This document shows, one piece after another, positions 1 through 56,422 of a stretch of DNA of 64,000 bases (position 1 is the stretch's first letter; every line of letters starts with the position of its first letter). The notes under the pieces are model-generated. The model saw only the letters and a list, made by a program, of their open reading frames with translations. It did not search any database and was not told where the DNA came from. The translations under genes were made by a program, and so were the position numbers. This DNA is from Agathobaculum sp. NTUH-O15-33 (GTDB taxonomy: Bacteria > Bacillota > Clostridia > Oscillospirales > Butyricicoccaceae), in contig NZ_CP136187.1 in assembly GCF_033193315.1 (NCBI RefSeq), forward strand, positions 3,417,501 to 3,481,500, written 5' to 3'.

Positions 1-708
1 TCCGATCCCGCCCGCAATGGCGCGCGCTGGTTGTTCGATATCGCCGCCCAGACCGTACCGAGCGAGCATTACACCCCCGGCACTGTATTTGAGTGGAACG
101 ACGGTTTCTACTCGCACACCATTACAGTGGAAGCGGTCGACCGCTCACCGCTTGGCTGCTTTCTCACGATGCACGATTCGCTGGGCGGAACAGGCCATCT
201 GGATCCGGAATTTTCTCTGCGCGACCAGAACGGAAACGGCATCCCATACCGCCGCGCGTCGAATGTGGTCTCCGACCGATTTACCTATGAGCTGCTCGGC
301 GATCTCACCTCGCTCACCGAATTGACCATCGTGCCGCTGCGCCCTGAGAAGAACGGCGACTTCCACCGCATGCTGATCCCGGTCGACCGCGTTCCCAAAG
401 AGTTGCATGCTTACGGCTACGCGCTTACAACGCTTACGCTGGACAGCCGCCGCCTTTCGATGACCTTCCGGCCCGACGGCATGACCATTCCCCCCGCTCT
501 TTATCCTGTTGCCGCGGATCAAACCGGAGAGGAGCTTTTTGATTCGTATGTGGATGCTGCGGTGAGCCATCAGGACGGCTCGGTCCACATCACCCTATCC
601 TTCCGTGTACCGCTCACACCGGACCAGCTGCGGCGGCTCACGCATGTGCGCCTGCAAACCCGCGTTTTCTCGCTTTCGGAAGACGCCGCCGTATCGATCG
701 CCCTATGA
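1..708 (+). CDS. 3' part of a hypothetical secreted or surface protein
   Basis: The frame is open from base 1 to a TGA at 706-708, so this is the C-terminal 235 residues of a gene that starts upstream of the window. The visible part has no membrane segment after its first residues. It has the alternating hydrophobic and polar pattern of beta-rich extracytoplasmic domains. A loose resemblance to the C-terminal region of DUF4179-type anti-sigma or surface proteins is possible, but I cannot confirm the family. A TTG at 31 could be misread as a start; the open frame upstream of it argues that the gene simply continues beyond the edge. The stop lies only 17 bp before the -35 box of the ndk promoter. 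Confidence 0.6.
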   Translation, partial: SDPARNGARWLFDIAAQTVPSEHYTPGTVFEWNDGFYSHTITVEAVDRSPLGCFLTMHDSLGGTGHLDPEFSLRDQNGNGIPYRRASNVVSDRFTYELLGDLTSLTELTIVPLRPEKNGDFHRMLIPVDRVPKELHAYGYALTTLTLDSRRLSMTFRPDGMTIPPALYPVAADQTGEELFDSYVDAAVSHQDGSVHITLSFRVPLTPDQLRRLTHVRLQTRVFSLSEDAAVSIAL

Positions 709-725
709 AAACCAGCCGCCGCCGC

Positions 726-754
726 TTGACAAGCGGCCGCCGTTCGTTTACAGT
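726..754 (+). promoter_or_regulatory. Sigma-A-type promoter of ndk
   Basis: TTGACA (726-731) and TACAGT (749-754) are separated by 17 bp, 31 bp before the ndk ATG. A strong Shine-Dalgarno (AGGAAGGAG) follows. The promoter is intact although the gene behind it is broken. Confidence 0.7.
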
Positions 755-785
755 GAAGATACACGCAATAAGGAAGGAGCTTTTC

Positions 786-1173
786 ATGGAAAGAACGTAT
801 ATCATGCTCAAGCCGGACGCTTTGCAGCGCGGACTGAGCGGCGAAATTCTGGCCCGCATCGAGCGCAAGGGCTACCGCATCACGCACATGAAGACCATGC
901 AGCTTGACGAGGCGATCCTGCGCGAGCATTACGCCCACATCGCCGGAAACGGTTACGTATATGGTTAGCGGCCCCGTGCTCGCCATGGTCGTAGAGGGGG
1001 AAAACGCGGTGCGCGGCCTGCGCATGCTGATGGGCCCGACCAAGTTCGAGGACGCGCAGCCCGGCACGATCCGCGGCGACTTCGCGCATTCGACCACCTA
1101 CAACATCATCCACGGTTCGGACAGCCCCGAAAACGCCGAGATAGAGATCCGCCGCTTTTTCGGCGACCTCTAA
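786..1173 (+). pseudogene. ndk: Nucleoside diphosphate kinase, frameshifted by a small internal deletion
   Basis: Ndk transfers the gamma phosphate of ATP to NDPs through a phosphohistidine. The first frame (786-968) encodes a normal Ndk N-terminus (MERTYIMLKPDA, then REHYAHIA) and then runs into TAG. The second frame, entered by about base 940, continues with a normal Ndk C-terminus: SGPVLAMVVEGENAV, the catalytic His in NIIHGSDS, and the end RRFFGDL. The conserved segment between HYAHIA and PETVTYM (usually DKPFF) is missing. The frame offset plus five missing codons fits a 17-nt deletion next to base 943. Promoter and Shine-Dalgarno are intact, which suggests recent inactivation or an assembly error. 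No second ndk is visible in the window. Confidence 0.85.
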
Positions 1174-1200
1174 GCGCCGATACGGCTCCGCAAAAACAAA

Positions 1201-1230
1201 AAGCCGCCGCAAGCGAACTTGCGGCGGCTT
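1201..1230. terminator. Bidirectional terminator between ndk and pnp
   Basis: A 13-bp perfect stem (AAGCCGCCGCAAG paired with its complement) has a CGAA loop. It is followed on the minus strand by TTTTTGTTTTTG and on the plus strand by an AT-rich stretch, so it can end both convergent transcripts. Confidence 0.85.
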
Positions 1231-1240
1231 ATATTTTGCT

Positions 1241-3364
1241 TTACTTGATCTTTTCTTCTTCCTTGACATCCTTCATGGACAGGTTGACGCGGCCCTTGTC
1301 GTCGATCTCCATGACCTTGACCCAGACCATATCGCCTTCCTTAACAGCGTCCTCCACCTTTTCAATGCGGTGGTCGGCCATCTTGGAAATGTGAACCATG
1401 CCGTCCTTGCCGGGCAGCAGGTTGACAAACGCGCCGAACGCCATCAGGCGGACGACCTTGCCGTAGTAAATCTCGCCGGCTTCCGGCTCCTTAACAATGG
1501 CTTCGATCATCTTCTTGGCCTTCTCCGCATCGGTCGCCTTGATGGCGGCGATGGTGATGGTGCCGTCGTCCTCGATGTCGACCTTTGCGCCGGATTCGGC
1601 AACGATATTCTGGATCACGCTGCCGCCCTTGCCGATAACCTCGCGGATCTTATCCGGGTGAATATGCATGGTGGTCATCTTGGGCGCCCAATCGGAAACA
1701 TCGGCGCGCGGCGCGTCGATCGCCTTCAGCATAACTTCGTCGAGGATGCCATAGCGGGCAACGCGGCACTTTTCAAACGCCTGCTTGATGATGTTCGGGG
1801 TCAGACCGTCGACCTTGATATCGACCTGAATCGCGGTGATACCCTTCTTGGTACCGGCCACCTTAAAGTCCATATCGCCGTAGAAGTCCTCAACGCCCTG
1901 AATATCGGTAAAGGTGGTCTCCTGACCGCCATCCGTGATCAGACCGCAGGAGATACCGGCTACCGGCGCCTTGATCGGCACGCCGGCGTCCATCAGAGCC
2001 AGCGTGGAACCGCAGACCGAGCCCTGCGAGGTGGAACCGTTGGAGGAAACGACCTCGGAAACCAGACGCAGCGCGTACGGGAATTCGCTCACCGGCGGGA
2101 TCACGGGCAGCAGCGCGCGCTCAGCAAGCGCGCCGTGGCCGATCTCGCGGCGGCCGGGGCCGCGCGACGGACGGGTTTCACCGACCGAGTAGGACGGGAA
2201 GTTGTAGTGGTGCATATAGCGCTTTTCTTTTTCTTCAAAGATGGTGTCCAGCTCCTGCGCGTCGCCCAGCGTGCCGAGCGTGCAAAGGGTGAGCACCTGC
2301 GTCTGGCCGCGGGTGAATAGGCCGGTGCCGTGTACGCGGGGCAGCACGCCGACTTCGGCGGCCAGCGGACGGACTTCCTCCATGCCGCGGCCGTCCACGC
2401 GCTTGCCGGAGGCCAGCCAGCGGCGAACGATCTTCTTTTCGAGCTTGTCCACGCACTCGTCAAGGAACGCGCCGTGCTCGGCGAGGTATTCCTCGGAAAG
2501 GGTGGCCTTGAACGCATCGACGACTTCGCGGATGCCCGCGTCGCGCACAGTCTTGTCGTCCGTATCCATGACGCGCTCAAACTCGGAAACACAGTCGGCT
2601 TCCAGCTTGTCGAACAGCTCATGGTCGATGTCGTGGTGTTCGTAATCGAACTTGGGCTTGCCGATCTGATCCTTGATATCGGAAATGAAGGCGCACATCT
2701 TCTTGATTTCCTCGTGCGCTTCCATCAGCGCGTCAAACATCGTATCCTCCGGCACTTCGTTCGCGCCGGCTTCGATCATGACGATCTTGTCCTTCGTGGC
2801 GCACAGGGTCACTTCCATATCGGAGACCTTGCGCTGCTCGGAGGTGGGGTTCATAACCATCTTGCCGTCGATCAGGCCGACGGAAGCGCCCGCCACGACA
2901 TAGTCGAACGGGATATCGGAAATAGAGACCGCGATGGACGCGCCCAGCAGGGACACGACCTCGGGCGAATTGTCAAAATCGTTCTCCAGCACGGTGCAGA
3001 CGATGGAAACGTCGTTTCTCAGGTCCTTGGGGAACAGGGGGCGCATCGGGCGGTCGATCTGGCGGGAAGCCAGAATGGCCTTTTCGCTCGGGCGGCCTTC
3101 GCGGCGCATGAACGAGCCGGGGATGCGGCCAACGGAGTAGAGACGCTCCTCAAAATCGACCGAAAGCGGGAAAAAGTCGATGCCGTCGCGCGGCTTGGCG
3201 GAAGCGGTGGCGGTGACGAGCACGGCGGTGTCGCCGTAGCGCACCAGACACGAGCCGTTGGCGAGCTGTGCCAGCTTGCCGGTCTCGACCGTCAGCTTGC
3301 GGCCGGCGTAGGTGGTTTCAAAAACGCGGTGATCCTTGAAATCAAAGTGGTTGATGTTTGACAT
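1241..3364 (-). CDS. pnp: Polyribonucleotide nucleotidyltransferase (PNPase)
   Basis: This is the phosphorolytic 3'-5' exoribonuclease of RNA decay, a trimeric cytoplasmic enzyme. The 707 residues match the usual length. They contain two RNase PH-type domains (about 10-145 and 310-520, the second with the GDMDFKVAG active-site motif), a KH domain (about 565-620, with IREVIGKGGS) and a C-terminal S1 domain (about 630-700, with GAFVNLLPGKDGMVHIS). The ATG at 3364 is preceded by AAGGAGGA at a good distance. It lies downstream of rpsO on the same strand, the conserved rpsO-pnp order, and is probably co-transcribed with it through a leaky intergenic hairpin. Confidence 0.97.
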   Translation of the reverse strand: MSNINHFDFKDHRVFETTYAGRKLTVETGKLAQLANGSCLVRYGDTAVLVTATASAKPRDGIDFFPLSVDFEERLYSVGRIPGSFMRREGRPSEKAILASRQIDRPMRPLFPKDLRNDVSIVCTVLENDFDNSPEVVSLLGASIAVSISDIPFDYVVAGASVGLIDGKMVMNPTSEQRKVSDMEVTLCATKDKIVMIEAGANEVPEDTMFDALMEAHEEIKKMCAFISDIKDQIGKPKFDYEHHDIDHELFDKLEADCVSEFERVMDTDDKTVRDAGIREVVDAFKATLSEEYLAEHGAFLDECVDKLEKKIVRRWLASGKRVDGRGMEEVRPLAAEVGVLPRVHGTGLFTRGQTQVLTLCTLGTLGDAQELDTIFEEKEKRYMHHYNFPSYSVGETRPSRGPGRREIGHGALAERALLPVIPPVSEFPYALRLVSEVVSSNGSTSQGSVCGSTLALMDAGVPIKAPVAGISCGLITDGGQETTFTDIQGVEDFYGDMDFKVAGTKKGITAIQVDIKVDGLTPNIIKQAFEKCRVARYGILDEVMLKAIDAPRADVSDWAPKMTTMHIHPDKIREVIGKGGSVIQNIVAESGAKVDIEDDGTITIAAIKATDAEKAKKMIEAIVKEPEAGEIYYGKVVRLMAFGAFVNLLPGKDGMVHISKMADHRIEKVEDAVKEGDMVWVKVMEIDDKGRVNLSMKDVKEEEKIK

Positions 3365-3435
3365 AGTTTGTCCTCCTTATTTTTGATCCCGGAGGGCGGC
3401 GAGCGGCTTTTAGCACTTGAAGCAGGGGCAACGTT

Positions 3436-3467
3436 TTGCCGGTTCACGGGTGTGCTGTGAACGGCAA
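3436..3467 (-). promoter_or_regulatory. Stem-loop in the pnp leader
   Basis: TTGCCGGTTCAC pairs with GTGAACGGCAA with one bulged base, about 70 nt upstream of the pnp start. In other bacteria the pnp leader folds into a stem used for RNase III/PNPase autocontrol. A similar role here is inference from position only. Confidence 0.4.
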
Positions 3468-3535
3468 ATTTGCGGTTTGTCTCTCCTTCAACTGCTAAAA
3501 AACGGGCGGGCCGCCTTCCATTGAAATACAGAAAC

Positions 3536-3556
3536 AGGGGAGCAGACTGCTCCCCT
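3536..3556 (-). terminator. Hairpin after rpsO
   Basis: A 10-bp stem (AGGGGAGCAG with its complement, one-base loop) lies 10 bp downstream of the rpsO stop. The minus strand after it has only a weak T run, so read-through into pnp is likely. On the plus strand it is followed by TATTTTT. Confidence 0.55.
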
Positions 3557-3565
3557 ATTTTTCTC

Positions 3566-3832
3566 TTACTTACGGATGCCGAGCTTGGCGATCAGTGCGC
3601 GGTAACGGTTGATGTCCTTCTTCTGCAGGTAAGCCAGCAGCGAACGGCGCTGACCGACCATCTTGAGCAGGCCGCGGCGGGAATGGTTATCCTTCTTGTG
3701 GATCTTCAGGTGCTCGGTGAGCTCCTGAATGCGCGCGGTCAGGATGGCGATCTGGACTTCCGGCGAGCCGGTGTCGGTCGCATGGGTGCGGTTTGCTTCA
3801 ATTACAGCGGTTTTGTCTTCCTTACGGATCAT
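3566..3832 (-). CDS. rpsO: Small ribosomal subunit protein uS15
   Basis: S15 is a primary 16S rRNA-binding protein of the 30S platform. The 88 residues from MIRKEDK to the C-terminal AKLGIRK match the family length. Hallmarks such as [24 protein letters not shown] and RRSLLAYL are present. I chose the ATG at 3832. A longer reading from the GTG at 3844 would start inside the Shine-Dalgarno GAGGTGA (about 3841-3847). It has its own promoter (3953-3981) and a leader of about 115 nt, the region where S15 autoregulation occurs in other species. Confidence 0.95.
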
Positions 3833-3952
3833 GGTATCTTTCACCTCATTATAATATTACCCACTGCGCCGGGCCGCGGAGGAGGGAAACTTGACACGGT
3901 AGGAACGTGCCCTGTATATCCGGCGGCTAAGCACGGGGCCAAAGTTATAATT

Positions 3953-3981
3953 ATGATAACACAGTGCCGGGATTTTGTAAA
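3953..3981 (-). promoter_or_regulatory. Promoter of rpsO(-pnp)
   Basis: On the minus strand TTTACA (3981-3976) and TATCAT (3958-3953) are separated by 17 bp. Transcription would start near 3946 and leave a leader of about 115 nt before rpsO. Confidence 0.6.
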
Positions 3982-4095
3982 GCTTTTTCTTGATTTTGCA
4001 CATGCAAGGGCTTTTTGCATGGATTTTCCGCCGCTTTTTGTCGAATTGCACAGATGTAAACAAATTGTAAAGAAGCGATTTGTAAAATATGAATC

Positions 4096-4125
4096 TTGCC
4101 TAGAAAAGACAATAAGTGATATAAT
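4096..4125 (+). promoter_or_regulatory. Distal promoter of the radical SAM gene
   Basis: TTGCCT (4096-4101) and TATAAT (4120-4125) are separated by 18 bp, with a TG extension before the -10 box (TGATATAAT). The 500-bp gap between rpsO and the radical SAM gene is otherwise AT-rich and non-coding. It holds the two divergent promoters, and apart from them and the hairpin at 4278 I see nothing else in it. Confidence 0.55.
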
Positions 4126-4277
4126 TCTTTTATTCGGTGGACAACCAGAGACATCCACCCTCTTTATTTTTCGGAAGAAACGCGGCGGGGCTGTGCAATC
4201 GTGCGGCCTGATGTCGCGTTCTTTTTTTAATCATTCGATCACAACCGCCGGTTGGATCATTTCATATATTTTATGCG

Positions 4278-4314
4278 ATTCCGGACAAGCTTTGTCCGGA
4301 ATTTTTGTTATAAT
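4278..4314 (+). promoter_or_regulatory. Terminator-like hairpin fused to a proximal promoter
   Basis: An 11-bp perfect stem (ATTCCGGACAA, GCT loop, complement at 4292-4302) is followed by TTTTG, which is an intrinsic terminator or attenuator for the upstream transcript. Directly behind it lies an extended -10 box (TGTTATAAT, 4306-4314), about 32 nt before the ATG at 4346. Transcription from the distal promoter would be attenuated here while a second start lies just downstream. Confidence 0.5.
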
Positions 4315-4345
4315 AGAGAAAACAGCTGAAAGGGGTGTTCCCGCC

Positions 4346-5233
4346 ATGGAGACCGTTCCGGCCAAAACCATAGTAACGAACGCCAAGGCGCCCAGCGCAT
4401 GGTTTGGGGCGCGTTATATGATGAACATCTACCGCGGCTGCTGTCACGGCTGCATTTACTGCGACAGCCGCTCCGAATGCTACCGGGTGGAGGATTTCGA
4501 CACCGTGCACGCAAAGGAAAACGCGCTTGCCATCATCCGAAGCGATCTGAACCGCAAAACGCGTTCCGGCGTGGTGGCGACCGGCGCGATGAGCGACCCC
4601 TATAACCCGTTTGAGCGCGAGACCGAACTGACGCGCCACGCGCTTGAACTTATTTCCGCCTATGGTTTCGGCGCGGCCATCGCCACCAAGAGCGATCTGA
4701 TCTGCCGCGATATCGACGTGCTGCGCGAAATACACGCAAACGCCCCCGTACTATGCAAAATGACCGTGACCACCACGGACGACGCGCTCGCGAAAAAGAT
4801 AGAGCCGCGCGCCCCCTCGCCCACCCAGCGCTTTGACGCGCTCGCGCGGCTGGCGGCGGCCGGTCTGCCCACCTGCATCTTATTGATGCCCGTTTTGCCG
4901 TGGCTGACCGACAGCGGGGAAAATATACGCGCCATTGTAAGAAGCGCCAAGGAAGCGGGCGTGATGGGCATATACCCCGCCTTCGGCGTGACCATGCGCG
5001 ACCGCCAGCGCGCCCACCTGTACGAAGCGCTGGACCGGGAGTTCCCCGGATTGCGCGAAAAATACGCGGCGCGTTACGGCACGCGCTATTCCTGCGGCGT
5101 GCCGCGCGCGAAAGCGCTGTGGCACCTATTCTCCACCGCGTGCGATCAGGCGGGCCTGTTCTACCGCATGCGCGATATCATCCGCCGCTACCAGCGCGGC
5201 TACGGGGATGGGCAGCTATCGCTTTTTCTATAA
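4346..5233 (+). CDS. SPL-family radical SAM protein
   Basis: The 295-residue protein carries the radical SAM motif CX3CX2C (CCHGCIYC, about residues 31-38), which binds a 4Fe-4S cluster. It also has the MNIYRGCCHGC and GAMSDPYNPFE signatures of the Rv2578c/spore-photoproduct-lyase-like group. That group includes DNA photoproduct lyases but most members have no known substrate. The start is the ATG at 4346 (Shine-Dalgarno AAAGGGG). The open frame extends far upstream, but that part overlaps rpsO in antisense and is not coding. It stands alone with its own promoters. The fold and cofactor are clear; the reaction is unknown. Confidence 0.85.
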   Translation: METVPAKTIVTNAKAPSAWFGARYMMNIYRGCCHGCIYCDSRSECYRVEDFDTVHAKENALAIIRSDLNRKTRSGVVATGAMSDPYNPFERETELTRHALELISAYGFGAAIATKSDLICRDIDVLREIHANAPVLCKMTVTTTDDALAKKIEPRAPSPTQRFDALARLAAAGLPTCILLMPVLPWLTDSGENIRAIVRSAKEAGVMGIYPAFGVTMRDRQRAHLYEALDREFPGLREKYAARYGTRYSCGVPRAKALWHLFSTACDQAGLFYRMRDIIRRYQRGYGDGQLSLFL

Positions 5234-5236
5234 CGC

Positions 5237-6439
5237 TTACGCCTTTTGCTGATACATTTTCCGGTCCGCCGCTTGGATCAGCTCGTCCGGCCCGGCAGCG
5301 GCGTCCGAACGCACCGCGCCAAAGCATAGCGATAGCGAAAACGGGTAGGCCGAGGTGTTGCTGCACGCGCGCAGCATGCGGTCGGCTTCGCGCAGCTTGC
5401 GCCCGGCCTCTTCTTCAGTGTAGTCGGAGAAAAGCGCGATAAACTCATCCCCGCCGTAGCGGAACAGATGATCCGCCCCCGGCCGGAGCACGCGCCCGAT
5501 CTCCTGCGCGGCCGCCAGCAAGTACGCGTCGCCCGCCGAGTGCCCGATCCGGTCGTTGACGTGCTTGAGCCCGTTCAGATCGATAAAGCACAGGCAAAAC
5601 GGCTCGCGCCGGTCAACCATTCCTTCAATGCGCTGCTGCGCGCACTGCCGGTTAAACAGGCCGGTCAGCGCATCGCGAAACGCCAGCGAGCGCAGGCTTT
5701 CGGTTTCCCTGCGCTGTAAGCGCACCTCGGCGCGCATTTTTTCATTTTGCTTCCGGTATAGGGACAGACGGCACATGCGGATGGTATACCACAGACCGTA
5801 TTGATAGCCCACAGCCGTAAACACCGCCGATTTGATGCCCCACAGCTTGAGCACCAGCAGATTTTCCCCGGTGCTGTACAAAAGCAGGCCCAACGACAGA
5901 TAACCGTAAAGAATCGCCGCCATCCATAAAAACACGCGCAAATGCTCCCTGCTGCGCATGACCAAGCGGAGCGCCCGGATACGGCCGGGCTTCAAATACA
6001 ACTGAAACACCAGCGCGGCCAAAAGGAAACCGGCCATGACCGGATACAGCTTGATATTGTCCGCCTGACTGGTATTGTTATTCACCGCGTTCAGCGGCAC
6101 ATCGAGCACGAGCGTGACAATGCAGCGGCTGAGCATATTGAAGGTGAGCCCAATCAGCGCGCCTTGCAGCGCAAGCAAGCCGGAAGGCAGCAGGCCGCCG
6201 CGAAACAGCGGCAGCGTTTCGGCAAACAAAAGCGCGAACAGCAGCGTCCAGTTCACGATCAGGTGGAACTGCATCACGCTGCACAGGAAAAACACCGTGT
6301 AATTGACAAGGAACAGGCCCAGCGTGTACCGCACTGGGGCGGCGGGGCGCGCCAGCGCTTTGGCGGCGTAAGTAAAATACCGGTCGCAGTAGCAATAGGC
6401 GGCGGCAGCGGCTAAAAGCAGTCTCAGCACGTCACGCAC
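5237..6439 (-). CDS. Membrane diguanylate cyclase (GGDEF), downstream gene of a pair
   Basis: Predicted to make cyclic di-GMP from two GTP. Residues 1-225 form several hydrophobic helices, a membrane sensor of unknown ligand. A short coiled coil (about 228-250) precedes the GGDEF domain (about 250-395), with an intact GGDEF motif near residue 331. The inhibitory RxxD site normally five residues before GGDEF is not in register (RPGAD), so product inhibition may be lost. It overlaps the upstream GGDEF gene by 8 bp, which suggests translational coupling. Only 3 bp separate its stop from the convergent radical SAM gene. Confidence 0.9.
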   Translation of the reverse strand: MRDVLRLLLAAAAAYCYCDRYFTYAAKALARPAAPVRYTLGLFLVNYTVFFLCSVMQFHLIVNWTLLFALLFAETLPLFRGGLLPSGLLALQGALIGLTFNMLSRCIVTLVLDVPLNAVNNNTSQADNIKLYPVMAGFLLAALVFQLYLKPGRIRALRLVMRSREHLRVFLWMAAILYGYLSLGLLLYSTGENLLVLKLWGIKSAVFTAVGYQYGLWYTIRMCRLSLYRKQNEKMRAEVRLQRRETESLRSLAFRDALTGLFNRQCAQQRIEGMVDRREPFCLCFIDLNGLKHVNDRIGHSAGDAYLLAAAQEIGRVLRPGADHLFRYGGDEFIALFSDYTEEEAGRKLREADRMLRACSNTSAYPFSLSLCFGAVRSDAAAGPDELIQAADRKMYQQKA

Positions 6440-7628
6440 CTCCCTGCACGGACCGACGGCCCCGTTGCTTATCCTGATACATGGCGGCGTCGGCCTGATC
6501 GATCAGCGCCTGCGCCTCGGGCGGCGTACCGCCCGCGTAGCAGGCCACGCCAAAGCTAAACGGGCACTTATCCTGACCACCGGCGAGCCGGTCGCGGACC
6601 GCGCGCATGCGTTTTCCGGCTTGCTCCTCATCGGCGGACGGCAGCAATACAAGGAACTCGTCCCCTCCGTAGCGCGCAAAAATATCCTGCGGCTGCTGCA
6701 AGCGGCTGAACCGCCCGGCAAAATCGCGCAGGTGGTCATCCCCCGCCTTGTGGCCATGCCGGTCGTTGACCTGCTTGAGCCGGTCCAGATCGATAAATAC
6801 GGCGGCAAAGGGCTCGCCTTGCTCCAGCATGGTCTGCATGCGCGCCACGGCATAGCTGCGGGAATAAGCGCCGGTGAGCGCGTCGGACGAGGCGCTGCGG
6901 CGCAGCATGGCGGCGGTGCGCGCGTTGGTTTCGATCTCCTCGCGCAGCTCCGCGTTTTCCCCCTCCTCGCCGATGTTTTCCACAATGGCGCTGATATCGC
7001 GCAAGAAACAGGCGATAAGAAACAGCAGTAGCGCGTTGCTGCCGATCAAAAACAGCGGCGTGTGCAGGGTAAGCGTATCAAACCGGCCCAGCATCCCATC
7101 CACCAAAATGGAAAGCACGCACCACCACAGGCAACGGTTGAAGGGCCGAAAATCGCCCCGGCCCTCGTCCCGCGCGAACAAGGCGATCACCCGGCTATGC
7201 CGCAGCATGATCATGCCGCACGCCAGATCGGCCGTCATCGCCAGAATCAGGGTGAACAGCCGCCGCATCGGGTCGTTCATGGCGTCGGCCAAACTGAGCC
7301 GTCCCGCGAGCGCGACCGCGCCGATCGCCATCAGGTGCAGCGCCGCAAAGGTGACAAACCGTGTATGGAGCAGGGCCTGCCTCGTCAGCCACGCGCCGCG
7401 GCGCGGCAGCAGGCGCACAAGCTTTACCAGATAAACGAGCGAATAGAACGCCAAAAGCGGGATGCGCCATACCGTCAGCGCGGTAAACAGCAGCGCCGCC
7501 GGAACATACCCGGCGATACGCCAACCGAGCCCATCCCCGCATGGCCCGCACAGTGCATCATCCAAACGCAGGCAAACACGGCTGTGCAGCACGGACAGCA
7601 CCACGACCAAAACTACCGCGACCAGCAC
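6432..7628 (-). CDS. Membrane diguanylate cyclase (GGDEF), upstream gene of a pair
   Basis: A 398-residue protein with seven or so hydrophobic segments in residues 1-220, a linker helix, and a GGDEF domain (about 240-395) with an intact GGDEF motif. The usual RxxD inhibitory site is replaced (QPQD). The architecture is the same as its downstream neighbour, so the two probably arose by tandem duplication. The start is the GTG at 7628, with a Shine-Dalgarno (GAAGGGGTAG) about 9 nt before it. It is the first gene of a two-gene operon with a clear promoter upstream. Confidence 0.88.
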   Translation of the reverse strand: MLVAVVLVVVLSVLHSRVCLRLDDALCGPCGDGLGWRIAGYVPAALLFTALTVWRIPLLAFYSLVYLVKLVRLLPRRGAWLTRQALLHTRFVTFAALHLMAIGAVALAGRLSLADAMNDPMRRLFTLILAMTADLACGMIMLRHSRVIALFARDEGRGDFRPFNRCLWWCVLSILVDGMLGRFDTLTLHTPLFLIGSNALLLFLIACFLRDISAIVENIGEEGENAELREEIETNARTAAMLRRSASSDALTGAYSRSYAVARMQTMLEQGEPFAAVFIDLDRLKQVNDRHGHKAGDDHLRDFAGRFSRLQQPQDIFARYGGDEFLVLLPSADEEQAGKRMRAVRDRLAGGQDKCPFSFGVACYAGGTPPEAQALIDQADAAMYQDKQRGRRSVQGGA

Positions 7629-7676
7629 AGCTTATCTACCCCTTCCTCATTTGTTGAATTTTTTTCCTATTTAAAT

Positions 7677-7705
7677 ATGCTACCACATCGCTCTTTGCTT
7701 TTCAA
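7677..7705 (-). promoter_or_regulatory. Promoter of the GGDEF pair
   Basis: On the minus strand TTGAAA (7705-7700) and TAGCAT (7682-7677) are separated by 17 bp, about 50 nt upstream of the GTG start. Confidence 0.6.
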
Positions 7706-7860
7706 GCGCGAAGGCTGGTGCATTTCGCCGGTTTGGGCGCGCTAAAGTATCTCACGCGCGTAAATTACCACAAAAGGGCGCTTCTTTCGGAAATCTTAAT
7801 ATTTTCCTTTTACATTCCTTAATTTCTTACCGGCATACTGCTAGGTAGAGGTGATGAGGA

Positions 7861-24817: not shown

Positions 24818-24854
24818 TCCCTTGCCCCCAGCGCGCCGCGCCGAACAGGCGCGA

Positions 24855-25126
24855 GGAGGAGGGCATTTCCCTCCTCCTTTCCAGCTTGTCAAAGAGCCCC
24901 TCGCGCCGCAGCGCATATAAAATGGAAACTTGAAGCAAAGCTTCAAGTTTCCAAAAAAGTGGGAGCATGTATCTCACTTTTTTAACAAACCGGCGGAGAA
25001 GTGTGCCCAGAGGGCGCGCGCCGAAGCCGGAATACTCGATCGAAATGGGGCTTTGTTTCGATCGACAGACTGTCAAAAATAGTTTTTGACAGTCTGGGAA
25101 GGAGGAGGGCATTTCCCTCCTCCTTT
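24855..25126. repeat. Terminator-flanked miniature element, copy A
   Basis: A 215-bp core (24882-25096) has related ends in inverted orientation (CAGCTTGTCAAAGA on the left, complement of CAGACTGTCAAAAA on the right). It is flanked by a 27-bp perfect direct repeat (24855-24881 and 25101-25127) that is itself a hairpin, GGAGGAGGG-loop-CCCTCCTCC. Inside are a 12-bp stem (GGAAACTTGAAG), a stem around the loop GGAGCATGTATCT, a stem CGATCGAAA, and a terminal stem AGACTGTCAAAAA. It fills the 397-bp gap before the sigma factor gene. No coding frame. See copies B and C. Confidence 0.75.
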
Positions 25127-25154
25127 CGCCTGCGGCGAACGCCACGCCGCTCAC

Positions 25155-35518: not shown

Positions 35519-35605
35519 GTCATCCTTCGCTCTCATTCGATCGCCGCTCGGCGGCGATCGGAGGATAGAGGACTACGGTCTCGTCACTACGTTCCTCAGA
35601 ATGAC
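35519..35605. repeat. Short interspersed repeat ending in GTCAT/ATGAC
   Basis: The segment runs from GTCATCCTTCG to CCTCAGAATGAC, with imperfect inverted ends and an internal perfect hairpin (CGATCGCCGCTCGGCGGCGATCG-like, 35538-35560). The GTCATTCTGAGGAACG-type end resembles an interspersed motif found in many bacterial genomes. About 50 bp of it (CTCTCATTCGATCGCC onward) are homologous to an insert inside element copy B at 47650-47702. It occupies much of the 324-bp gap before the first RpiR gene. Confidence 0.65.
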
Positions 35606-47435: not shown

Positions 47436-47512
<77 letters not shown>

Positions 47513-47517
47513 TATTG

Positions 47518-47847
47518 AAAGGCCGGTTTCGTAAGAAACCGGCCTTTTTTCAGCGTGTCAAAGAACTCCCTCGCGCCGCAGCGCGCATAAAATACGATTT
47601 TGCCGTTTGCGGCAAAATTCGTAAAAACCGGGAGCATATATCTCGGTTTGCTCTCATTTAATCGCCGCACGGCGGCGGTCAGTGGATAGAGGCCTACGGG
47701 CTATACAAACCGACTTCAAGTGTGCCTGCAAGGCGCGCGCAGAAGCCGGAATTCTCGATCGAAATGGGGCTTTGTTTCGATCGACAGACTGTCAAAAATT
47801 GTTTTTTGACAGTCTGAGGCCGGTTTCTTACGAAACCGGCCTTTTTT
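47518..47847. repeat. Terminator-flanked miniature element, copy B
   Basis: Core 47551-47816 (266 bp) with ends CAGCGTGTCAAAGAAC and the complement of CAGACTGTCAAAAAAC. It is bracketed by two hairpins with the same stem (GGCCGGTTTC...GAAACCGGCC), each with a T6-T7 tract on the plus strand. Their loops are GTAA (left) and TTAC (right), reverse complements. Internal stems are TACGATTTTGCCG with its complement and AAACCG around GGAGCATATATCT. The last 70 bp are nearly identical to copy A. A 51-bp insert (about 47650-47702), related to the 35.5-kb repeat, accounts for the greater length than copy A. The left hairpin is also the tRNA terminator. Confidence 0.75.
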
Positions 47848-56140: not shown

Positions 56141-56422
56141 AGCGGAAGTCAAATGATTGACTTCCGCTCAGACTGTAGACAAAGGTCTCTCGCCGCAACG
56201 CGCATAGAATGGAAAATGGAGCGTAGCGACGTAAAATCCGTTTTTTCGGGGGCGTGTACCTCGAAAAAACACCTCGACCCGCGCCACTGGGCGCGTAACC
56301 CGGGGGTATCGAGACCGGTTTCTCCGGAACTGGTCGAGTATCTAGGGGGCACCCAATGCCCCCTAGACAGCGTGTCGACTTTGTCGACACGCTAAGCGGA
56401 AGTCAAGTAATTGACTTCCGCT
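56141..56422. repeat. Terminator-flanked miniature element, copy C (diverged)
   Basis: Core about 56169-56394 between two hairpins with the same 12-bp stem (AGCGGAAGTCAA...TTGACTTCCGCT) and different loops. Left end CAGACTGTAGACAAAGG and right-end complement CAAAGTCGACACGCT show the same end pattern as copies A and B. GACAAAGG-CTC-CGCCGCA, a stem around GGGCGTGTACCT, GCGCCACTGGGCGCG and a terminal stem AGCGTGTCGAC occupy the corresponding places, with new stem sequences. One extra hairpin (TCTAGGGGGCA) is present. The left hairpin has A7 before it, so on the minus strand it is a terminator for the AraC gene. Confidence 0.7.

Follow-up and report, generated by a model that had tools for sequence, protein, structure and literature searches.

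Small gene-less elements in the genome of Agathobaculum sp. NTUH-O15-33 lie, at most loci, between two copies of a hairpin that is particular to the locus, and these paired copies are target-site duplications, the hairpin determining how long each one is. The elements form two families of miniature elements (MITEs). Very probably, they are mobilised in trans by IS1182 transposases, which would transfer the strands to the two feet of a palindrome extruded as a cruciform and in this way duplicate the hairpin. Three of the elements, copies A, B and C, are found in the window, by which we mean the whole stretch of 64,000 nucleotides that was analysed (contig NZ_CP136187.1, positions 3,417,501 to 3,481,500). 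Their features are as follows, in window coordinates:

24854..24881, no strand: copy A, left copy of the target hairpin, 28 bp, identical to 25100-25127
24882..25096, plus strand: copy A, family-1 miniature element, 215 bp, CAG...CTG ends
25066..25096, plus strand: copy A, right-terminal hairpin, with the right terminal repeat inside it twice, inverted
25100..25127, no strand: copy A, right copy of the target hairpin, identical to 24854-24881
47436..47509, plus strand: tRNA gene (Rfam RF00005, 63.1 bits)
47518..47550, no strand: copy B, left copy of the target hairpin (47518-47547) with its T tract
47551..47816, plus strand: copy B, family-1 element with 54-bp internal module, 266 bp
47817..47847, no strand: copy B, right copy of the target hairpin (hairpin at 47817-47842)
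56141..56168, no strand: copy C, left copy of the target hairpin
56169..56394, plus strand: copy C, family-2 miniature element, 226 bp
56395..56422, no strand: copy C, right copy of the target hairpin, with a loop unlike that of the left copy

The duplicated hairpin of copy A, AGGAGGAGGGCATTTCCCTCCTCCTTTC, is 28 bp long and identical on both sides; an earlier reading of this DNA from its sequence alone had described the perfect direct repeat correctly and given its length as 27 bp. Three unmatched bases (25097-25099) separate the element from the right hairpin copy. Copy B has as its target the hairpin just downstream of the tRNA gene, which is likely the terminator of that gene, and the 4-nt loop of its right hairpin copy is reverse-complemented (TTAC vs GTAA). 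The final base of the copy C element is A, with G in some other family-2 copies. The end pattern that the sequence-only reading had noted in A, B and C is indeed common to all three, but the single family proposed on that basis is in fact two: A and B belong together, and C represents a second family with little in common beyond this pattern.

Genome searches with copy A, its left part, its right part and copy C collected at least 68 copies in the 4.0 Mb genome, 12 of family 2 and at least 56 of family 1, the latter being a lower bound because only 40 of 82-93 candidates were scored in each family-1 search. Of 13 further loci with the end pattern, eight do not count towards this set; they are mini or decayed forms, apart from two that looked like chance matches. 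Both ends were present in 48 of the 68 copies. Across the genome there are 88 occurrences of the end pattern CAGNNTGTCAAARA and none of its reversed control. By their blast ends, the elements are 212-310 bp long (83 complete copies from two strains), except for one complete copy of 393 bp with a nested insertion. The window elements are thus short, multicopy and gene-less and carry terminal inverted repeats, as MITEs do. Some family-1 copies contain the 54-bp internal module, a stray relative of which was also observed at window positions 35529-35581, where it scored 66 and the best of 200 shuffled sequences 21. This relative lies within a seemingly different repeat whose ends resemble TGTCATT...AATGACA, and the module is apparently common to unrelated small elements.

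We next turn to the flanks. Left and right flanks matched each other (score of at least 36) in 41 of the 48 complete copies, compared with 3 of 2,256 mismatched left/right pairs, so that locus-specific duplicated hairpins, which had been postulated from the three window copies, are the usual state and copies lacking them the minority. At the left end a hairpin abutted 46 of the 48 elements, at the right end 45; the same search scored 1 of 96 shuffled flanks and 3 of 288 other positions at the same loci. Seven complete copies have no matching duplication, one of which (L038) is explained below as a recombinant. Among 54 copies with exact CAG and CTG ends, pooled from the window's genome and a sister strain with sites in both counted twice, a direct repeat with few mismatches allowed abuts both ends in 43. 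In the miniature elements the abutting duplication measures 24-44 bp, with a median of 33. With the axis placed on the dyad, 0.88 of its outer nine pairs are complementary; with the axis moved by 1-4 bases, 0.20-0.34 are. Being self-complementary about the dyad, the duplication indicates that the element was attached to both feet of the hairpin almost symmetrically. The earlier description of the hairpin as a very long target-site duplication of a non-autonomous element with terminal inverted repeats is supported. Its further description as an intrinsic terminator holds for the majority of targets and not as a rule, since among the 43 copies with hairpins on both sides an outer A tract was found on the left in 31 and an outer T tract on the right in 24.

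The loop had the same orientation in both hairpin copies at 42 of 47 classified loci; it was inverted at four and ambiguous at one, and copy B was also judged inverted by eye. Inversion can come after insertion, since of the orthologous copies L009 (window's genome) and L138 (sister strain) only one has an inverted loop.

A few loci showed other arrangements. L158 (G000:C1:2977800-2979200) holds a 54-bp near-perfect palindrome, CAG...CTG, consisting of the element's left end and its reverse complement, and the flanking hairpins of L017 and L045 are palindromes similar to it; element ends may themselves become palindromic targets. L154 and L157 (G000) are minimal elements of about 32 bp, made up of the right-terminal hairpin only and located between two different hairpins. 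L031 (G000:C1:1180070-1181260) is a copy without the usual right end; the direct repeat on its flanks exceeds 40 bp and does not form a single palindrome.

The sequence-only reading had recognised no transposase or known family for these elements. However, elements of the IS1182 family that share these ends behave likewise. The window's genome gave no match to the IS1182 transposase profiles PF13751 and NF033551; the link comes from strain G060, a genome of the same species, whose contig C9 starts inside an IS1182-type transposase gene. Past the transposase stop lies an element end, CAGACTGTCAAAGAACCACAG on the opposite strand (noted as CAGACTGTCAAAGAA), and the hairpin directly beyond it is the one that copy B occupies after the tRNA gene. 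One and the same hairpin is therefore occupied by a miniature element in the window's genome and by an IS1182 element in G060. The 123-aa transposase fragment had NF033551 as its sole match, with 91.2 bits, which is below the whole-protein cut-off. The copy is cut by the contig end, its other element end is not assembled, and no further IS1182 copy was found in G060. The start of C9 is identical to the start of a Butyricicoccus faecihominis DFI.6.109 contig. From position 7825 on, C9 matches window positions 47512-39337 at 99%, and the preceding stretch of about 7.4 kb (C9 ~448-7825; L101, L169), opposite window position 47509, has no match to the window. This stretch lies at the tRNA 3' end, has a 13-base copy of that end on its far side (C9:435-447) and looks like a small integrated island.

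The transposase family behind the miniature elements is most likely IS1182. The family-2 end (CAGACTGTAGACAAAG) resembles the ends of the IS1182 relatives L260 and L266 rather than those of the partners of family 1, so that two transposase subclades may have been involved.

A contig scan with the G060 transposase fragment gave 204 relatives, of which 80 were kept. One of them, L195, scored 393.9 bits against NF033551 (cut-off 270). It comes from the complete genome of Clostridiales bacterium CCNA10, which contributes nine copies to the 80. Three of these (L191, L195 and L196) have the same hairpin on both sides, with the loop inverted in one. L181 and L189 have exchanged flanks, each differing at one base, which is what recombination between copies would give. 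L197, L199 and L200 are flanked by different hairpins, and no left end was found for L188. With a fixed choice of ends across the 80 loci, a duplication was present at 17 of 34 loci with both ends and a hairpin lay beside 30 of 33 elements with a right end only, while 13 had no right end by the motif.

A second set combined 54 of the 80 relatives (most of the others were cut by contig ends) with 30 phylum-wide loci. A blind inverted-repeat search at these 30 loci had succeeded in 0 of 30, as the palindromic flanks were swallowed, and was replaced by motif-anchored ends. Of the 84 elements, 65 had a long frame, and a CAG end pair could be found in 34 of these; the remaining 31 were four GGG-ended elements and 27 without an end pair by pattern. 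An abutting duplication of 20-39 bp was seen in 24 of the 34 full-length CAG-ended elements, a count obtained with the best-scoring end pair, which favours hairpins, and from rows that include the identical records L207 and L281 and six copies from CCNA10. The duplication is again symmetric about the dyad (0.89 centred vs 0.26-0.36 shifted; 20 measured). Ten of the 34 have no abutting duplication, and in seven of these ten there are hairpins on both sides that differ from each other. This could be the result of recombination, which is shown for one exchanged pair only (L181/L189). Six records of plasmid elements were examined as well. An ISEfa7 copy from Enterococcus faecium has an exact 23-bp palindrome abutting both ends, and an element of Sutcliffiella horikoshii an exact abutting duplication of 30 bp; the flanks differ between the two sides in the elements from Exiguobacterium mexicanum and Staphylococcus simulans.

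In a tree of 66 transposase rows, all 37 rows labelled as having a CAG end with hairpins fell within one clade of 51 (100/98), the label being given whether or not the hairpin was duplicated, and to six of the 37 rows by hand. This clade also holds three CAG-ended rows with a one-sided hairpin and 11 rows without assigned ends, and the six GGG-ended rows lie in another part of the tree. Hairpins were labelled by eye for L256, L259, L261, L262 and L268 (a single side in L261 and L268, two unlike hairpins in L262); hand labels were further given to the G060 fragment (as hairpin, in the first tree) and to L265 and L283 (as GGG). For a second tree, 11 rows were listed for dropping, and the G060 fragment was also omitted. 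There, the presumed IS1272, from a record without that name and with ends GAGTCTGGGACATAAA, grouped with the GGG-ended rows on a long branch. Residues D145, D280 and E407 are invariant in 16 transposases and fit a DDE triad. The transposase structure was predicted poorly (mean pLDDT 57.7), and the model was set aside.

These observations can be put together as follows. The two MITE families would be mobilised in trans by DDE transposases of the IS1182 family, from the clade with CAGNNTGTC-like ends. The target would be a strong perfect palindrome, terminator-like in most cases, and the transposase would join the two 3' ends of the element to both strands at the feet of this palindrome. Most simply, joining would occur on a palindrome extruded as a cruciform, which would bring the two feet close in space though they are 24-44 bp apart in sequence. 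If the ends were joined at the 5' feet of both arms, repair would copy the arms and leave a direct duplication of the whole hairpin, with the length of the palindrome. A variable and dyad-symmetric duplication is what one would predict from pathway b, a possible branch in the scheme of Wan et al. 2017 (PMC5678879) next to the deletion observed for IS1272. That the whole hairpin is duplicated suggests that the enzyme reads the shape of the DNA rather than its sequence. Some findings stand against this explanation. By the two profiles, the window's genome has no IS1182 transposase, and only one, contig-cut copy was found in the sister strain, so that trans-mobilisation is not seen directly; in addition, the inverted loops (4 of 47, plus copy B) are not predicted by simple strand transfer. 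Also on this side of the balance are the complete copies that lack a matching duplication (7 of 48), the full-length elements that lack an abutting one (10 of 34), the low yield of the relaxed test in other species (7 of 26) and CAGACTGTCGAA beside the hairpin of the empty site L110.

It is possible, if unlikely, that the transposase uses a single-stranded hairpin, accessible on the lagging strand or in the course of transcription or repair, instead of a two-armed cruciform. Hairpins form easily in single strands, and their use in this form is known for other elements, e.g. IS200/IS605. However, a full direct duplication that is symmetric about the dyad would most simply reflect joining to both strands. 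We give somewhat less credit to the idea that the palindrome is bound as an ordinary duplex, by virtue of its symmetry and by a dimer, and opened by a long staggered cut. Palindromes of this size extrude slowly without supercoiling, which speaks for a duplex target, the cruciform being our inference. But the stagger would then have to vary between 20 and 44 bp and to match the stem ends each time, which a dimer of fixed geometry does not explain.

Returning to joining at the cruciform, a filled site has a full hairpin with its own outer A/T tract on each side of the element. Termination is therefore probably preserved in both directions, and if it is, the insertion sites would be safe havens. 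We think it rather likely that a clade of DDE transposases picks its target by shape and joins at the cruciform feet, that the structure of the target sets the duplication length and leaves a terminator working on both sides, and that the same recognition has split into a duplicating branch (the CAG clade) and a deleting branch (IS1272).

The sequence-only reading had also offered an RNA-templated process, and a group-II-intron-like mechanism that selects terminators can be considered alongside it. Group IIC introns insert near terminators, and the interior of the elements is highly structured, with changes on both sides at 20 of 61 predicted pairs (36 family-1 sequences, 13 rows having been left out). 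Such double-sided changes may reflect selection on structure or palindrome correction. On the other hand, the only Rfam family over gathering score in the whole window is the one tRNA, the terminal inverted repeats and the target duplication are in keeping with a DDE transposase, and those IS1182 elements that code for protein and share the ends act alike. Nothing that we found points to RNA-templated insertion, which appears very improbable and was rejected, as a DDE transposase accounts for the data.

The comparison with G060 provided sites without the element. Of 40 G060 copies examined, 13 pair with copies of the window's genome (two of the 13 with the same copy). Another 13 copies and the copy-B region were compared between the two strains by synteny projection, which gave eight clear filled/empty pairs, with the element in G060 alone at six sites and in the window's genome alone at two; outside these eight, L157 was shared and L055, L023, L041 and L062 gave no alignment. 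All eight empty sites carry a single hairpin, and their filled partners two hairpin copies around the element. Target-site duplication with empty sites in relatives, as known for MITEs, was thus observed in 8 of 8 informative pairs, and neither of the two outcomes named beforehand as contradicting it, empty sites lacking a single matching hairpin or a lack of duplicated hairpins at most other copies, was encountered. Insertion between two pre-existing terminators, for which the 31 strong hairpins that a simple scan counts in the window alone (element hairpins included) might speak, is refuted for these eight sites, and a hairpin belonging to the element itself does not agree with hairpins so locus-specific that 3 of 2,256 mismatched pairs match; we therefore rejected both variants, which have next to no probability left.

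At one empty site (L110), CAGACTGTCGAA follows the hairpin and is perhaps a relic of an older element end. L038 in the window's genome has two different flanking hairpins. In G060, its flanks correspond to L126 and L128 (C3:25848-37704), about 10 kb apart and each with its own duplicated hairpin, so that L038 would most simply be a recombinant of two copies. The comparison of L126/L128 with L038 points to an element-mediated loss (or gain) of about 10 kb. Copy A is present in the sister strain as L148 (G060:C9:29485-31478), with a nested insertion of about 160 bp that has TGTCATTAA...TTAATGACA ends and belongs to another small element family.

Beyond the species, 20 of 23 other genomes of the genus contain family-1-like DNA, as against 0 of 36 genomes from other genera. 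A relaxed test for duplicated hairpins was positive at 7 of 26 loci in other species and at 0 of 47 control stretches, and a strict exact-repeat test at 5 of 27 (two of the five being one locus) and at 0 of 49 controls. Many of the matches in other species are short or diverged.

The closest known system is the IS1182 clade (NF033551) with CAGNNTGTC-like ends, which includes ISEfa7 and shares with the window elements the terminal repeat, the hairpin targets and the duplication of the whole hairpin (24 of 34). The window elements differ from it in being gene-less and only 215-266 bp long, and by eye the likeness to the IS ends is confined to their terminal 15-20 bases. In ISfinder, the repeats given for IS1182 span 0-60 bp, and part of the hairpin duplication described here may already be recorded there. 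IS1182 members that aim at palindromes are on record, as cited in PMC4923244 and PMC5678879, and the duplicated hairpins of the CAG-ended elements agree with this. According to the same papers, the staphylococcal IS1182-family elements IS1272 and TnSha1 have hairpin targets, several of them confirmed terminators, without a sequence consensus, and delete part or all of the target hairpin, leaving no duplication. The window elements share the choice of hairpins with IS1272; however, they keep and duplicate the hairpin, and the stem-loop replacement typical of IS1272 was not observed for them. In Fig. 13 of Wan et al. 2017 (PMC5678879), duplication of the whole stem-loop is drawn only as a possible branch (pathway b), as far as the consulted portions go. 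Among the papers that our literature searches listed, we recognised no report of whole-hairpin duplication as an observed outcome, or of MITEs that use it, though records at the level of database entries may exist.

Target-site duplications normally have a fixed length and are used as a transposase signature. A variable duplication equal to the target palindrome could mislead annotation tools. Bacterial MITEs as described in the available part of a review (PMC10969869) are likewise short, gene-less and present in high copy number, with terminal inverted repeats and a target duplication. The duplication seen here differs in being long, variable and equal to the target palindrome, of which that part of the review mentions no case; the term IS1182 is absent from the text of the review. 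Palindromic intergenic targets have their own precedents. IS1397 and ISKpn1 aim at REP or other palindromic repeats, and the consulted part of PMC10969869 states the same for IS1111. Those targets are repeated sequences, whereas the targets of the window elements differ from each other and have only their shape in common.

The duplications form a genomic record of hairpins or cruciforms that were open to a transposase in living cells, and they open to testing a branch that the published model of Wan et al. 2017 contains as a hypothesis. They also explain the paired gene-end hairpins around small repeats in this gut bacterium.
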